In this document: positions 38,349 through 43,709 of the stretch, piece after piece
How the letters are laid out: the number at the start of each line of letters is the position of its first letter
Position numbering within the stretch: the stretch's first letter is position 1
Assembly: GCF_002332425.1 (NCBI RefSeq)
Contig: NZ_NRGS01000033.1
Coordinates: forward strand, 1 to 64,000
Origin: Brachybacterium alimentarium
Lineage (GTDB): Bacteria > Actinomycetota > Actinomycetes > Actinomycetales > Dermabacteraceae
Length of the DNA stretch: 64,000 nt
Reading direction: 5' to 3'
Notes under the pieces: model-generated
What the model saw: the letters and a program-made list of their open reading frames with translations, nothing else
Told to the model about the DNA's origin: nothing
Database searches by the model: none
Translations under genes and position numbers: made by a program

Positions 38349-38404
38349 GGGCGTCGGGCGTCGGGCGTCGGGCGTCGGGCGTCGGGCGTCGGGCGTCGGG
38401 CGTC
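38349..38404. repeat. Eight-unit heptamer array (GGGCGTC)
   Basis: Eight exact GGGCGTC units fill the space between the stop codons of the convergent fucosidase and TetR genes and run into the TetR stop codon. The unit equals the heptamer of the array at 25291 read on the opposite strand. Confidence 0.92.
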
Positions 38405-39041
38405 AGGCGCGCGGCTCGGCGTTCCGCGTCACGGAGACGTCGAGACCGTCGGCGATCATCGTGAGCGCCTTGGCGAAGCTGTCCCCGTCGCTCGTGGCGG
38501 CGACCGCATCCTCGGGGTTCAGGGAGTCCGGTGCGTCCAGGAGTCCGAGGGAGTCCGCGGTGCGGCGCTGCTGCTCGTGGAAGACGTAGCCGACGGTGAA
38601 GTGCACGAGCACCTCGGCAGCCACCTCGGACAGCGCATCGGGCACGCCGTGGCGTCGTGCGACCTCCAGCAGCTGGGGTCGCACCGGTGACCCGACCAGC
38701 CCGAGGGACAGGGAGCTGGAGACCAGCTCCGAGGCATCCCGGTAGGTGAGCAGGCAGTCGCGCAGCCGTGCACCGAGCACGCGCACCGCCTCATGCACAC
38801 CCAGGGCACCCAGGTCCTCGATCGGGAGCTCCGCGAGCGGTGCGAGGATCCGCGCGCTGACGGCGGCGAGCAGCGCCTGCTTGTTCGGGAAGTGCCAGTA
38901 CAGGGCGCTGGGCTGCACGCCGAGCGCCGTCGCCAGGTTCCGCATCGTCAGGTCGGGGAGCCCGTACTCGTCCAGGAGCTGCAGGGCCATCTCGGCGACG
39001 TCCTCACGGCTCCGTCTGCGGGGAGTTCCTGAAGTCGCCAT
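38403..39041 (-). CDS. bioQ: TetR family regulator, BioQ-like
   Basis: A 212-residue repressor with N-terminal HTH REDVAEMALQLLDEYGLPDLTMRNLATALGVQPSALYWHFPNKQALLAAV and a TetR-type C-terminal domain. It is divergent from bioY. The intergenic region holds two TGAAC-N3-GTTCA sites, nearly identical to the TGAAC-N3-GTTAC operator reported for C. glutamicum BioQ. A TATAGT -10 ends 7 nt before the ATG, which implies a leaderless mRNA. Repression of the biotin transport operon is inferred from site, position and family. Confidence 0.88.
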   Translation of the reverse strand: MATSGTPRRRSREDVAEMALQLLDEYGLPDLTMRNLATALGVQPSALYWHFPNKQALLAAVSARILAPLAELPIEDLGALGVHEAVRVLGARLRDCLLTYRDASELVSSSLSLGLVGSPVRPQLLEVARRHGVPDALSEVAAEVLVHFTVGYVFHEQQRRTADSLGLLDAPDSLNPEDAVAATSDGDSFAKALTMIADGLDVSVTRNAEPRA

Positions 39042-39047
39042 CTCTTC

Positions 39048-39085
39048 ACTATAGTGATGAACGGCGTTCAGGTGAACGCTGTTCA
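39048..39085. promoter_or_regulatory. Overlapping divergent -10 elements and twin BioQ operators
   Basis: The palindrome ACTATAGT (39048-39055) supplies a TATAGT -10 hexamer on both strands, one for the leaderless tetR and one for bioY. Immediately beside it are TGAACGGCGTTCA (39058-39070) and TGAACGCTGTTCA (39073-39085), two perfect 13-bp palindromes 15 bp apart. Repressor bound there would block both promoters, giving autoregulation and control of bioY. Confidence 0.8.
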
Positions 39086-39101
39086 GGAGAGAGGTGGTCA
39101 G

Positions 39102-39767
39102 ATGGCCGACAGGACCCAGAAGCAGGACAGCACCGACGGGACCGACGGGTGGCGGTGGTCGCTGGACGCGCAGGACATCGCGCGGGTGGCGGTGTTCGCC
39201 GCGCTCGTGGCCGCGCTGGGCCTGCCCGGGAGCTTCAACGTGTTCGGCGGTGTGCCGATCACCGCACAGACCTTCGGCGTGATGCTCGCGGGCGCCGTGC
39301 TCGGTCCGCGCCTGGGCGCGCTGTCGATGATCGTGCTCCTGGCCCTCGCCGCCGCGGGCCTGCCGCTGCTGGCCGGTGGGCGTGGTGGGCTCAGCGCGTT
39401 CGTCGGACCGTCGGCCGGATACATGTTCGGGTGGATCCTGGGCGCGTTCGCGGTCGGTCTGATCGTGCACGCCTCGACCCGCAAGCCCTCCGCGCTCCGG
39501 GTCGCGCTCGCCGCGATCATCGGCGGCATCCTCGTGATCTACGCCGTCGGCATCCCCGTGCAGAGCCTCGTGACCCGCCTGCCGCTTGAGCAGACCGTCC
39601 TGGCGAGCCTCGTGTTCCTGCCCGGGGACCTGCTGAAGGCCGCTCTGGCCACCGCCGTCGTCGCCACGCTGCTGCGCGCCTACCCGCGCGCCTTCCGCCG
39701 CACGTGGCAGCCCGCCCGGCGCTCGATCCGCCGGGCCGACGCCGCGCCCGCGCAGAGGCCGCGGTGA
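39102..39767 (+). CDS. bioY: Biotin ECF transporter S component BioY
   Basis: A 221-residue membrane protein with about six transmembrane helices. BioY motifs are VPITAQTFGVMLAGAVLGPRLG and GRGGLSAFVGPSAGYMFGWILGAF, with the typical C-terminal VFLPGDLLKAALA. It binds biotin at the membrane and pairs with BioM/BioN encoded downstream. The ATG at 39102 follows GAGAGG by 7 nt; an earlier ATG would overlap the operators. It heads a five- or six-gene overlapping operon. Confidence 0.95.
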   Translation: MADRTQKQDSTDGTDGWRWSLDAQDIARVAVFAALVAALGLPGSFNVFGGVPITAQTFGVMLAGAVLGPRLGALSMIVLLALAAAGLPLLAGGRGGLSAFVGPSAGYMFGWILGAFAVGLIVHASTRKPSALRVALAAIIGGILVIYAVGIPVQSLVTRLPLEQTVLASLVFLPGDLLKAALATAVVATLLRAYPRAFRRTWQPARRSIRRADAAPAQRPR

Positions 39768-40888
39768 GTTCGCAGATCGTGGTGCTGGGCGGCTCGGGGG
39801 AGGGCCTGCTGGACCGTCTCCGGGCGGTGCGCGCCGACGGCGACGTGCCCCTGGTGGGCAACGACCGCTGGCCGGCGGCGCACTGGGACGCGGTGCGCGA
39901 GCTCGCCGCGTCCCGGCCCGTCCCGGCGGAAGCCGGCTGGGCAACGCTGACCTCCGGGACCAGTGGGACACCACGGATCGTGCTGCGCAGCGCCGCCTCC
40001 TGGGAGCGCTCCTTCGAGGCCGTCTCCGCGCTCCTCGCGAGCCCCGGGGGAGCGGACGCCGAGCAGCGGATCCTGCTGCCCTCGCCGCCCGCCTCCTCGC
40101 TCACGCTGTTCTCGCTCGCGCATGCGCTCGGGGGCGGCCCGCGACCGGTCCTGCCCGACAGCGCGGACCGCGCCGAGGCGACCGTGCTCCACGGCACGCC
40201 GCAGGCCCTGAGCGCCGTCCTCGCGGCCGGCGATCTCCCGCACCTGCGCACGGCGCTCATCGGCGGCTCGCACCTCCCGGCCGGTCTGCGCGCCGAGGCC
40301 GAGTACCGCGGTGTCCGCGTGGTCTCCTACTACGGCGCGGCCGAGCTCTCCTTCGTCGCGCTCGACACCGGTGACGGGCACCGTGCCTTCCCCGGTGCCG
40401 AGCTCGAGATCCGTCAGGGCGAGCTGTGGGTCCGCTCGCCGTACCTGGCGCTGGGATACCTCGGCGGCCCGGGCCCGGTGCGCACCGCCGGAGACTGGAT
40501 GAGCGTCGGCGACCTCGCGACCCTCGAGGACGGCGTGCTCACCGTGCACGGCCGCAGGGACGCGGCGATCCTCACCGCCTCGGCCACCGTGATCCCGGAC
40601 GAGGTCGAGGCCGGCCTTCGCACGCTCCCCGGGATCGCCGACGCCGTCGTGCTCGGGCTGCCCACGGACGGTATCGGCGCGCTCGTCGCCGCGATGATCG
40701 AGCCGGAGCCCGGCGCCGCCGTCCCCACGGCCCGCGCGCTGCGCTCCCTGGCGGCCACCCGCTTCACCTCGTCCCACCGTCCCCGGATCTGGTTCGAGGG
40801 CCCGGTGCCCCGCACCGAGTCGGGCAAGCCGGCTCGCGCCGAGGCGCTGCGCCGCGTGCAGGCGGGGGAGGTGAGGCGCTGTGCGTGA
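39764..40888 (+). CDS. AMP-dependent acyl-CoA ligase-like protein in biotin operon
   Basis: A 374-residue adenylate-forming enzyme. The P-loop is LTSGTSGTPRIV (the usual Lys is Arg), the A5 motif is VSYYGAAELSFVAL, the hinge region GDLATLEDGVLTVHGRRDAAI and the catalytic lysine lies in RTESGKPARAEAL. It lacks roughly the first 100 residues of ordinary acyl-CoA synthetases. The GTG at 39764 overlaps the bioY stop (GTGA). In B. subtilis yhfT, a similar ligase gene, sits beside yhfS (thiolase) and yhfU (bioY), so the linkage is conserved between phyla. Its substrate is unknown; a biotin precursor acid such as pimelate is only a hypothesis. Confidence 0.85.
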   Translation: MSSQIVVLGGSGEGLLDRLRAVRADGDVPLVGNDRWPAAHWDAVRELAASRPVPAEAGWATLTSGTSGTPRIVLRSAASWERSFEAVSALLASPGGADAEQRILLPSPPASSLTLFSLAHALGGGPRPVLPDSADRAEATVLHGTPQALSAVLAAGDLPHLRTALIGGSHLPAGLRAEAEYRGVRVVSYYGAAELSFVALDTGDGHRAFPGAELEIRQGELWVRSPYLALGYLGGPGPVRTAGDWMSVGDLATLEDGVLTVHGRRDAAILTASATVIPDEVEAGLRTLPGIADAVVLGLPTDGIGALVAAMIEPEPGAAVPTARALRSLAATRFTSSHRPRIWFEGPVPRTESGKPARAEALRRVQAGEVRRCA

Positions 40889-42008
40889 TCACGCCGTCGT
40901 CGTCGCTGCGCGGCGCACCCCGATCGGCACCCGCAGCCGCGCCCTCGCCGCCCACGGCGTCGAGCAGCTGGCCGCGCCGGTCCTGCGCGCCGCCGTGCAT
41001 GAGGCGTCGGCCGCCCTCGGGACCGAGCCCGTCATCGCGGACGTGGTGCTCGGCAACTGCCTGGGCCCGGGCGGGAATCCCGCCCGGGTCGCCGCCCTCG
41101 CCGCGGGACTCGGTGTGAACGTGCCGGGGGAGACCGTGGACCGCCAGTGCGGCAGCGGCCTCGCCGCCGTGATCGACGCGGCGCGCGCGATCGAGGCCGG
41201 GGACGAGCGCGTCTTCCTCGCCGGCGGCGTCGAGAGTGCCTCGACCGCGCCGCGACGCTCCCGGGACGGCGTGCCCTACGACCGCGCACCGTTCACCCCG
41301 GACGGCTGGCCCGACCCGGACATGCCGCGCGCCGCGGACGCCCTCGCTGCCGCCGACGGGATCGGCAGGTCCCGCCAGGACGCGCACGCCGCCCGCAGCC
41401 ACCGACGTGCACGCGCCGCCCAGGGCACAGGCCGGTTCGACGCAGAGCTCGTCCCCGTCGGCGGAGTGACCGCCGACGACTCCCTGCGCGCCTCCGCGCC
41501 GTCGTTCGGACGGCTGCCGCCGCTGTTCCCCGGCGGCACCCTCACGGCAGGGACCTCGACCCGGATCAGCGACGGCGCCGCAGCCCTGCTGCTCGTCCCG
41601 CAGCGCGCGCGGGGCCGTGCCCCGGGACTCGCGATCCGTTCTCACGCCGTCGTCGGCTGCGACCCCGCGCTGCCGGGCATCGGCGCCGCTCCCGCCGTCG
41701 AAGCCGCTCTCGTCTTCGCAGGCCTCGGTCTCGAGGACCTCACCGCGATCGAGATCGTCGAGGCCTTCGCCGCGCAGTCGCTCGCGGTGCTGGACCGCGT
41801 GGGCCTGGCCGAGGACGATCCTCGGGTCTGCGCCGACGGCGGGGCTCTGGCCCTCGGTCATCCCTGGGGCGCGAGCGGGGCGGTCGCCATGGTGCGGCTG
41901 TTCAGCCGGCTGATCAGGGGAGCCGCCCCGGCAGGGTCCCTCGGGGTCGCCGCTGCCTCGATCGGCGGGGGCATGGGCATCGCCGCCGTCGTGGAGGTGA
42001 TCCGATGA
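40881..42008 (+). CDS. Thiolase-like protein in biotin operon
   Basis: A 375-residue thiolase-fold protein. The acyl-accepting cysteine is Cys90 in DRQCGSG, and His327 in ALALGHPWGASGA matches the thiolase histidine. Two usual catalytic positions differ: the NEAFA motif reads VEAFA, and the second cysteine of the CxGxG motif is Ser360 in AASIGGGMGIA. The protein may therefore not be an ordinary acetyl-CoA acetyltransferase. It overlaps the ligase by 8 bp and bioM by 4 bp. It corresponds by position to B. subtilis yhfS. Confidence 0.87.
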   Translation: MRDHAVVVAARRTPIGTRSRALAAHGVEQLAAPVLRAAVHEASAALGTEPVIADVVLGNCLGPGGNPARVAALAAGLGVNVPGETVDRQCGSGLAAVIDAARAIEAGDERVFLAGGVESASTAPRRSRDGVPYDRAPFTPDGWPDPDMPRAADALAAADGIGRSRQDAHAARSHRRARAAQGTGRFDAELVPVGGVTADDSLRASAPSFGRLPPLFPGGTLTAGTSTRISDGAAALLLVPQRARGRAPGLAIRSHAVVGCDPALPGIGAAPAVEAALVFAGLGLEDLTAIEIVEAFAAQSLAVLDRVGLAEDDPRVCADGGALALGHPWGASGAVAMVRLFSRLIRGAAPAGSLGVAAASIGGGMGIAAVVEVIR

Positions 42009-42691
42009 GCGTCCTGGACCTCGAGAACGTGGGCGTGCGCCTGGGCGATACCGACGTGCTGCACGGCGTGACCTGCTCGCTGGATGCCCGCACGATCGCC
42101 GTGGTGGGGGAGAACGGTTCGGGCAAGTCCACGCTCGCGCGGCTCGCGGGCGGGCTGGTCACCGCCACCAGCGGCAGGATCCGCGTGCTCGGCCTCGATC
42201 CGGAGCGTGAGGCCTCACGGCTGCGGCGGGGCGTCTCGGTCGTCTTCAGCAACCCGGATGCGCAGATCATCATGCCCACCGTCGCGGAGGACGTCGCCTT
42301 CTCCCTGCGCTCGGAGAAGCTGCCGTGTGTCGAGAAAGCCCGTCGCGTGCAGGCTGCCCTGGAGCGCTTCGGTCTCGTCGAGCTCGCGGACCGCTCCGCG
42401 CACGACCTCTCCGGCGGCCAGAAGCAGCTGCTCGCCCTGTGCGGGGCATTCGTGCGGCGCCCCGGACTGGTGATCGCCGACGAGCCGACGGCCTATCTCG
42501 ACGCCCGCAACGCCCGCCGGATCGCCGATCACCTCTTCGCCGATGCCGGGCACCGGCTGCTCCTGGTCACGCACGATCTCGAGCTCGCCCGGCACTGCGA
42601 GACCGTGGTGCTCGTCCGCGACGGCACGATCATCGCCACGGGCGCGCCCGACGCGATCATCGCGACCTACGAGGAGGCCCTGAGATGCTGA
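42005..42691 (+). CDS. bioM: Biotin ECF transporter ATPase
   Basis: A 228-residue ABC ATPase. Walker A is VGENGSGKSTLARL, the Q-loop lies in VVFSNPDAQIIMPTVAEDVAF, the signature is HDLSGGQKQLLALCGAF, Walker B LVIADEPTAYLD and the H-loop LLVTHDLEL, the usual ECF-type arrangement. It energises biotin uptake with BioN and BioY. It overlaps the thiolase gene by 4 bp and bioN by 7 bp. Confidence 0.94.
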   Translation: MSVLDLENVGVRLGDTDVLHGVTCSLDARTIAVVGENGSGKSTLARLAGGLVTATSGRIRVLGLDPEREASRLRRGVSVVFSNPDAQIIMPTVAEDVAFSLRSEKLPCVEKARRVQAALERFGLVELADRSAHDLSGGQKQLLALCGAFVRRPGLVIADEPTAYLDARNARRIADHLFADAGHRLLLVTHDLELARHCETVVLVRDGTIIATGAPDAIIATYEEALRC

Positions 42692-43281
42692 CCCTGTACC
42701 GACCCGGCACCGGGCTCTGGCACCGCCTGCCGGCCGGCCCGAAGGCCGCGGTGCTCATGATGATCGTGCTCGGCGTGTGCCTGCTGCCCGTGAGCTACAC
42801 CAGCGCTGCGATCGCCGCGGCGGTGTGCGTGGTCTGCTACGCGGTGCCGGGCACCGGGCCGCGGGAGCTCGTGCGGCAGCTGTACATCACCCGCTGGATC
42901 CTCGTGGTGACCGTCGCCGGGCAGCTGCTGTTCCTCGGGCCGGAGGAGGCGGCCGCGAACACCATGCGGGTCGCGGCGGCCGTGGTGCTGAGCGGTCTGC
43001 TGGCCCTGACCACCCCGGTCAGCGAACTGCTGGACGCGCTCGAGCGGGCGCTGGGCCCGCTCGCCCTGCTGCGCATCGACCCCCAGCGCGCGGCGCTCGT
43101 CCTCGCCGTCACGCTGAACACCCTGCCCGTGCTGGCAGGGCTGGCACGGGACGTGCGCGAGGCGCAGCGGGCACGTGGCGGAGGGCAGAGCCTGCGCCAC
43201 TTCGCCATGCCCTTCCTCGTCCTCGCGCTCAAGCACGCGGACGCGCTCGGGGATGCGCTGACCGCGAGGGGCGTGCGATGA
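42685..43281 (+). CDS. bioN: Biotin ECF transporter T component
   Basis: A 198-residue membrane protein with about five helices (CbiQ family). The cytoplasmic coupling region includes RIDPQRAALVLAVTLNTLPVLAGLARDVREAQRARG, with ARD and ARG of the T-component signature. It joins BioM to BioY. Its start overlaps bioM by 7 bp and its stop overlaps the CHY zinc-finger gene by 4 bp. Confidence 0.92.
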   Translation: MLTLYRPGTGLWHRLPAGPKAAVLMMIVLGVCLLPVSYTSAAIAAAVCVVCYAVPGTGPRELVRQLYITRWILVVTVAGQLLFLGPEEAAANTMRVAAAVVLSGLLALTTPVSELLDALERALGPLALLRIDPQRAALVLAVTLNTLPVLAGLARDVREAQRARGGGQSLRHFAMPFLVLALKHADALGDALTARGVR

Positions 43282-43709
43282 CCCGGCGGGGCCCGGTCGA
43301 CCCGGTCGACCCGGTCGAACCGGTCGGCCCTGTCGGCCCGGCGGGGCCGGTGGACCCGCCGGCGTCCGGAGATCGGGCGGATCCGGCAGAGGGCGAGGTG
43401 CCGGTGGTGCACGGGCCGACGGTCGATGCGCAGACGCGGTGCATCCACTATCGGACGCCGCTGGACGTGATCGCGCTCCGCTTCGCCTGCTGCGGCGAGT
43501 ACTACCCGTGTCACCTGTGCCACGAGGAGACTGCCGGCCATGCTTCGCGCCCATGGCCCGCTTCGTCGCGGCACGAGCCCGCGGTGCTGTGCGGGGTGTG
43601 CTGGAGCGAGCTGACCATCGCGCAGTACCTCCAGGCGGAGGACTGCCCGTACTGCGCGGCCGCCTTCAACCCCGGGTGCGCACTGCACCACGAGCTGTAT
43701 TTCGAGTAG
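43278..43709 (+). CDS. CHY zinc finger family protein
   Basis: A 143-residue protein. A repetitive N-terminus (PVDPVDPVEPVGPVGP, from 9-bp DNA repeats) is followed by a CHY zinc-finger domain rich in Cys/His pairs: TRCIHYRTPLDVIALRFACCGEYYPCHLCHEE...VLCGVCW...CPYCAAAFNPGCALHHELYF. CHY fingers bind several zinc ions; the role in bacteria is unclear. It overlaps bioN by 4 bp and so is the last gene of the biotin operon. Confidence 0.85.
   Translation: MTRRGPVDPVDPVEPVGPVGPAGPVDPPASGDRADPAEGEVPVVHGPTVDAQTRCIHYRTPLDVIALRFACCGEYYPCHLCHEETAGHASRPWPASSRHEPAVLCGVCWSELTIAQYLQAEDCPYCAAAFNPGCALHHELYFE

Follow-up and report, generated by a model that had tools for sequence, protein, structure and literature searches.

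The window analysed here is a stretch of 64,000 nucleotides from Brachybacterium alimentarium (contig NZ_NRGS01000033.1, positions 1 to 64,000), in which a biotin uptake operon carries genes for an acyl-coenzyme A (CoA) ligase and a thiolase-like enzyme between the transporter genes bioY and bioM. The position of this extra pair beside biotin transporter genes suggests an undescribed step of biotin salvage or repair. The gene order, operators, family assignment, loss of the base cysteine and partner genes reported below were established by computation. The features of the locus, including the components of the energy-coupling factor (ECF) transporter, are as follows.

38403..39041, minus strand: tetR, TetR-family regulator of 212 amino acids (aa), putatively BioQ-like by position and operator (Pfam TetR_N and TetR_C_1)
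39058..39070, no strand: BioQ-type operator 1, TGAACGGCGTTCA (pattern match to the published consensus)
39073..39085, no strand: BioQ-type operator 2, TGAACGCTGTTCA (pattern match to the published consensus)
39102..39767, plus strand: bioY, S component of the biotin ECF transporter, 221 aa (PF02632, 124 bits; PDB 4dve BioY, 3.5e-25)
39764..40888, plus strand: short AMP-forming acyl-CoA ligase, YhfT-like, 374 aa (Pfam, NCBIfam, alignment, structure model)
40881..42008, plus strand: thiolase-fold enzyme of the DRQC family, YhfS/VraB-like, without the base Cys, 375 aa (Pfam, alignments, tree)
42005..42691, plus strand: bioM, ECF transporter ATPase (Pfam ABC_tran, PF00005, and NCBIfam)
42685..43281, plus strand: bioN, ECF transporter T component of the CbiQ family (Pfam CbiQ, PF02361)
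43278..43709, plus strand: gene for a CHY zinc-finger protein (Pfam; overlap of 4 base pairs (bp) with bioN)

The five genes from bioY to bioN lie on one strand (39102 to 43281), and the gene calls give overlaps of 4, 8, 4 and 7 bp along the series, in agreement with the original prediction of a bioY-ligase-thiolase-bioM-bioN order held together by overlaps of 4-8 bp. The Pfam profiles BioY, AMP-binding and AMP-binding_C, Thiolase_N and Thiolase_C, ABC_tran and CbiQ were all matched over their cut-offs. A complete ECF biotin transporter, BioYMN, is encoded in the operon by the BioY, ATPase and T component genes (PF02632, PF00005 and PF02361). The tetR gene is divergent from bioY, and 60 bp separate the two genes.

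The window thiolase has the thiolase fold, and its active site was compared with the five fingerprints that the accessible part of PMC3406046 lists for thiolases, with Cys378 as the base. The counts given here refer to 67 thiolases of pair-bearing loci and 75 ordinary thiolases. The former include unmerged near-copies (L066 with L180, L036 with L146, and three from Rhizobium), and the thiolase of L047, which is cut by a contig end, stands outside them; L135 was counted as ordinary, its DRQCSNGI stretch not lying at the nucleophile of its thiolase (Asp occurs there in 0/75 ordinary thiolases). The CXS nucleophile motif is present as QCGSG at Cys90 (Cys in 67/67 and Ser in 61/67 members of the family), and the histidine of GHP (His348) is present as His327, being invariant both in the family (67/67) and in ordinary thiolases (75/75). 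The VMG fingerprint (Met288) reads LPG at 264-266; Met was found in 0/67 family members, where the residue is mostly Pro, versus 73/75 ordinary thiolases. NEAF (Asn316) reads VEAF at 293-296 (Asn in 14/67 versus 74/75), and the base of CXG (Cys378) is replaced by Ser360 (Cys in 0/67 versus 75/75). The enzyme had been predicted to keep Cys90 and His327 and to carry VEAFA (293-297) and Ser360, and all of these residues were found as stated. The alignment places Val and Ser at the very positions of the canonical Asn and Cys, which disposes of the possibility that these residues lie nearby in the sequence.

The family is marked by the motif DRQC, in which DRQ precedes the nucleophilic Cys. A quick tree placed the 67 thiolases on one side of a branch and the 75 others on the opposite side, with a Shimodaira-Hasegawa-like approximate likelihood ratio test (SH-aLRT) value of 100, and grouped the window enzyme in one clade with members from Fictibacillus and Staphylococcus aureus. 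The non-canonical residues R126, R135 and R339 are conserved in the DRQC family; together with the Pro that mostly stands for Met288, they suggest a specific acyl group. The predicted active site would fit acyl-enzyme chemistry without the base that serves acetyl-CoA. The best equivalog match of the window thiolase, behind the subfamily model TIGR01930, was to NF005212 (PRK06690), which we take to be the YhfS model, at 264.9 bits against a cut-off of 498. The Fictibacillus thiolase scored 509.2 bits, over this cut-off, and the window enzyme belongs to the same clade as this member (SH-aLRT 100).

The window ligase is a two-domain AMP-forming enzyme for which PF00501 and PF13193 both exceeded their cut-offs (53.3 and 28.7 bits), and its structure model has a mean predicted local distance difference test score (pLDDT) of 87.4. 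It covers only profile positions 161-384 of 384 in the AMP-binding domain. The P-loop starts at residue 63, whereas in the Fictibacillus ligase it lies approximately 85 residues further on; the window enzyme thus lacks the N-terminal portion of the usual ligase domain. The full-length ligases of Fictibacillus and Azospirillum have 490 and 499 aa. The P-loop reads TSGTSGTPR, with Arg71 for Lys, and the C-terminal domain retains its catalytic Lys (Lys355), which does not vary across the 13 aligned rows. Both the shortness of the ligase (374 aa) and its Lys-to-Arg exchange (Arg71) had been anticipated from the sequence. A recognisable P-loop motif was seen in 49 relatives, with a final Arg in 41 of them and a final Lys in 8. 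Arg is carried by most actinobacterial ligases (the exceptions being L040, L055, L210 and L216), so the exchange is no sign of decay. NF005797 (PRK07638), presumably the YhfT model, ranked third for the window ligase with 87.6 bits (cut-off 518), behind NF005877 (105.7 bits, cut-off 345) and NF004837 (94.3 bits, cut-off 476); the Fictibacillus ligase reached 537.6 bits with the same model, over its cut-off.

The pair adjoins biotin transporter genes in at least three bacterial phyla, and the predicted breadth of its association with bioY was confirmed by loci from Actinomycetes, alphaproteobacteria and Bacillota, the last represented by Fictibacillus and, with the pair away from bioY, by S. 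aureus. A class sample of 394 genomes was searched at a thiolase threshold of E <= 1e-85, which is strict and would miss weaker family members. The thiolase was found in 44 of these genomes, and when all neighbourhoods were read, BioY stood beside it in 44/44, which is not a chance adjacency. The ligase preceded the thiolase in 39/40 of one batch of these loci; in the remaining one, L211, a ligase was detected only after bioN and none before the thiolase. A second AMP-forming ligase follows bioN in L053 and L068, both from Actinomycetes. Over all 67 thiolase loci collected, BioY was adjacent in 62, the other five being three Rhizobium plasmids, S. aureus and L054, which was counted here although its contig ends where BioY would be. 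In the same family as the window, a full ligase of this kind was found in 8/47 genomes and a fragment in one. The arrangement is bioM-bioN-bioY-ligase-thiolase in Azospirillum, bioY-ligase-thiolase in Paracoccus, ligase-thiolase facing nitroreductase-bioY-bioN-bioM in Alloyangia, bioY-ligase-thiolase-MaoC pair in Fictibacillus, and ligase-thiolase, away from bioY, in S. aureus. A contig scan with one pattern shared with ordinary thiolases gave the strict motif in 5/80 loci among the matches listed, and among these BioY was present in 5/5 strict-motif loci and in 0/75 others. In 18 loci of one actinomycete family (f91), bioN is present and bioM was not detected; one further locus, L198, ends before bioN. 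The order bioY-ligase-thiolase-bioN without a detectable bioM was seen in L184-L197, L199-L201 and L204, and another ATPase may therefore serve in such loci.

The motif TGAAC-N3-GTTCA is given as a predicted BioQ site in the accessible part of PMC3398298. In line with the BioQ-like switch predicted for the operon, the whole genome contains TGAACNNNGTTCA just twice, in each case as an exact copy inside the 60 bp tetR-bioY gap, and the same pattern read backwards, used as a control, has no occurrence in this genome. By position and operator, the divergent TetR-family protein is probably BioQ-like. One or two BioQ-type sites were found upstream of bioY in each of 7 other same-family genomes with the pair, G037 and G042 having one extra site each elsewhere in the genome. 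Six genus members without the pair held a single BioQ-type site in total, far from bioY, and the reversed control pattern appeared once each in 2/14 genomes. The divergent orientation of tetR and bioY recurs in 7 loci of the same family (L044-L050) and also in L105, and exact BioQ sites were found near bioY in 12/62 loci scanned. A near-palindrome, TCTTCACTA/TAGTGATGA, at 39043-39060, between tetR and the BioQ sites, includes TATAGT, a candidate -10 element.

In Fictibacillus, AATGTTAAC-N16-GTTAACATT lies before bioY, and in S. aureus, AATGTTAAC-N15-GTTTACATT lies before the ligase gene; both of these sites resemble BirA operators. According to the accessible parts of the respective reports, bioY and yhfS-yhfT are under BirA repression in Bacillus subtilis and S. 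aureus (PMC11089781; for S. aureus also PMC6391492 and PMC7235819), and in S. aureus BirA binds and represses the yhfS-yhfT promoter, at a site carrying a mismatch (PMC6391492). Since BioQ-type sites occur in some loci and BirA-like sites in others, control of the pair appears to be shared out among two or more unrelated repressors that respond to biotin. No BioR boxes were found in 8 alphaproteobacterial loci with the single pattern tried.

Partner enzymes were found near the pair in some lineages. A 4HBT-type thioesterase (assigned by Pfam in Rhizobium) and a medium-chain dehydrogenase/reductase (MDR) accompany it in six loci of two phyla, namely three from Rhizobium, one from Streptantibioticus and two from class genomes, and these six loci form one thiolase subclade (support 99). 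The Rhizobium MDR reductase matched mitochondrial 2-enoyl thioester reductases (1zsy, 5e-28; 2vcy, 5e-28). In Fictibacillus, a MaoC pair identified by Pfam lies directly behind the thiolase. Two small open reading frames occupy the corresponding position in S. aureus, without a Pfam hit; one of them contains DDNPIH, which we take to resemble a MaoC motif. The ligase, the base-less condensing enzyme and the MaoC, reductase and thioesterase proteins of some lineages could together represent a two-carbon extension in the direction of synthesis that ends in a free acid, an interpretation that we offer tentatively. A nitroreductase-family gene beside the thiolase in three Rhodobacterales loci (L038, L043 and L122) and a major facilitator superfamily gene in two Azospirillum loci were considered as parts of the pathway and set aside as too local.

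From the tie to biotin uptake and the repression by biotin, the simplest substrate of the pair would be biotin with a shortened side chain. We propose, with rather less than even confidence, that the ligase and then the thiolase catalyse the opening steps of a pathway that is repressed by biotin and salvages the vitamin by two-carbon elongation of the side chain; the pathway's substrate, direction, extender and every enzymatic step are what we infer. When biotin is scarce, the repressor would leave the operators, and BioYMN would import biotin and probably ring-complete vitamers too. The ligase would form the CoA thioester of a carboxylate whose side chain has been shortened, in the simplest case bisnorbiotin and perhaps tetranorbiotin, and the thiolase-fold enzyme would take the acyl group onto Cys90 and condense this group with a two-carbon unit. 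As there is no Cys left to abstract the proton, malonyl-CoA, used decarboxylatively as in ketoacyl synthases, would be a more probable donor than acetyl-CoA. Biotin would then be reached by ketoreduction, dehydration, reduction of the enoyl group and release of the thioester; some lineages may encode some of these late steps next to the pair (MaoC dehydratases, MECR-like reductase, 4HBT thioesterase), and others would borrow them from fatty-acid synthesis. Such a substrate exists, since bisnorbiotin is abundant in urine, where it makes up 13-23% of total biotin in human 24-h samples (accessible part of PMC9106636). The broader claim of a widespread, biotin-repressed, CoA-based elongation from bisnorbiotin or tetranorbiotin, in which condensing enzymes of thiolase fold but devoid of the base Cys would make up a catalytic class of their own, is doubtful as a whole.

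Four other explanations were weighed, and all were ranked below elongation. The ligase might make biotinyl-CoA or biotinyl-AMP, and the Cys-His thiolase-like protein might act as a biotinyl transferase or as a store for scarce biotin, or pass the group to some acceptor. In favour of such a hand-off, all 67 enzymes share the nucleophile and the GHP His but no other catalytic residue of thiolases, the BioY is of the ordinary bioYMN type, and the pair is adjacent to the transporter; however, a biotin protein ligase is present anyway (in 7/7 genomes searched, with 4/7, including the window's, scoring over the curated cut-off), and the MaoC, reductase and thioesterase partners would have no role in plain transfer, which makes this second-ranked alternative unlikely. 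Somewhat less likely still is a bypass in fatty-acid synthesis, in which acetyl-CoA carboxylase fails at low biotin and the operon's enzymes activate fatty acids and lengthen them by reverse beta-oxidation, independently of malonyl-CoA. The expression under biotin scarcity implied by the operators, the matches of the ligase to several fatty-acyl ligase models (all below cut-off) and the relation of the MDR partner to mitochondrial 2-enoyl thioester reductase would all suit it, but a malonyl-free condensation needs the proton-abstracting Cys that is absent in 67/67, the bond to BioY in 44/44 genomes is tighter than co-regulation would require, and several non-canonical thiolase residues are conserved.

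Degradation, in which the two enzymes would carry out beta-oxidation of the biotin side chain and so shorten it, was also raised by the original prediction, and it fits the domain names of the two enzymes when these are taken alone. Thiolytic cleavage also uses the missing base Cys, as an acid, which counts against this explanation. The operators imply expression under biotin scarcity, the subclade partners are of a synthesis type, and in eight annotated pair loci no other beta-oxidation enzyme (acyl-CoA dehydrogenase, crotonase or hydroxyacyl-CoA dehydrogenase) was annotated, unannotated loci not having been searched for these; for these reasons degradation is not supported and we regard it as very improbable. 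Last in the ranking is assembly of pimelate, the seven-carbon biotin precursor, by the pair (e.g. from glutarate) for BioW-type pathways. A condensing enzyme with a dehydratase would fit such a role, and the biotin makers S. aureus and B. subtilis have the pair, as far as the accessible parts of the sources go; against it, BioB is absent in 35/44 class-sample genomes with the pair, and BioB and BioD are both absent in 11/13 of the first-collected genomes, the window's included (one of them, G015, being 81% complete). A general role in pimelate synthesis is excluded by these absences, and for most carriers a biotin precursor without rings is ruled out as the product; the substrate there should therefore already carry the rings. 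Of the role first proposed for the pair, the link between an acyl chain and biotin was retained, with recycling preferred, and the making of a precursor was not.

Several observations weigh against elongation for salvage. In the tree, the BioYs linked to the ligase fall among those of plain bioYMN operons, so nothing marks the transporter as a carrier of another vitamer and the entry of the proposed substrate is unproven. In Rhizobium and S. aureus the pair lies away from bioY. Asn316 is replaced in 53/67 DRQC thiolases, and therefore the oxyanion site is also altered, and the production of malonyl-CoA itself needs biotin. The window's own operon holds no partner enzyme; each partner type is limited to one thiolase subclade, so the partners may be local additions; the best PDB match of the MDR reductase is 3gms (8e-50), labelled a putative NADPH:quinone reductase; and the loci searched showed no conserved ketoreductase next to the pair. 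BioB was found in 9/44 genomes with the pair versus 186/350 others (p 4e-5), but the difference shrinks against BioY genomes without the pair (77/214, p 0.054) and vanishes when family f91 is left out (9/25 versus 77/214, p 1.0). A special link of the pair to biotin auxotrophs was consequently rejected, and the pair appears indifferent to biotin prototrophy.

Arg94, in a GGRGG loop, is found in 62/62 linked BioYs versus 3/19 unlinked ones. A BioY dedicated to another vitamer was considered on account of this bias and dropped, given the grouping in the tree. A second, divergent BioY type without detected bioM, bioN or the pair occurs in the same family (G025:C18:287576, G036:C15:77907 and eight others, L219-L226), and G025 and G036 carry both types. 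The window's genome has one BioY and therefore relies on the linked type alone.

The closest known system is YhfT-YhfS of Bacillus and Staphylococcus (NF005797, NF005212), which has the same two enzymes in the same order and is co-regulated by biotin with bioY. The S. aureus pair is, judging by gene order, probably VraA-VraB, and vraA (L144) is probably this ligase; the main text of a paper on vraA makes no mention of biotin. The window proteins differ from YhfT-YhfS in falling below both curated cut-offs, in the short ligase with its P-loop Arg, in the position of the pair between bioY and bioM, in BioQ-type instead of BirA-type operators and in the lack of MaoC genes. Compared with the biosynthetic and degradative thiolases of Zoogloea ramigera and Escherichia coli, the CXG Cys, NEAF Asn and VMG Met are replaced and DRQ stands before the nucleophile. 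BioZ of alphaproteobacterial biotin synthesis is likewise a condensing enzyme recruited to biotin metabolism (accessible parts of PMC7645780 and PMC8024396), but it is of the ketoacyl-ACP (acyl carrier protein) synthase III type and provides a pimelate precursor, whereas the window enzyme has a thiolase fold and its relatives also occur in BioB-less genomes. The bioYMN operon of Corynebacterium glutamicum has BioY, BioM, BioN and the BioQ operator motif in common with the window; it is described as bioY, bioM and bioN, and the accessible part of that report mentions no ligase or thiolase there (PMC3398298).

Already in print are the genes themselves, the bioY link in Firmicutes and the control by BirA. 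The literature searched consisted of titles and the starts of abstracts among the matches listed, with few subscription journals, so that a report elsewhere is possible; it gave no function for the pair and no microbial route from bisnorbiotin to biotin. Within the same literature we did not meet the clade in which every member has lost the base Cys, the 44/44 association, the placing of the pair between bioY and bioM behind BioQ-type operators or the partner enzymes. In S. aureus and B. subtilis the pair is part of the BirA regulon, yet the literature covered gave no function for it. If it repairs shortened biotin, current models are missing a bacterial source of the vitamin, and genome-based predictions of auxotrophy would have to be revised. 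The enzyme is also a natural case in which to ask what the thiolase fold does without the base Cys.

The CHY zinc-finger gene that follows bioN is probably co-transcribed with the operon. Relatives of it were found after bioN in six related loci (L044, L045, L046, L048, L049 and L105), and the N-terminal start of the protein consists of a proline-rich PVDPV/PVGP repeat.

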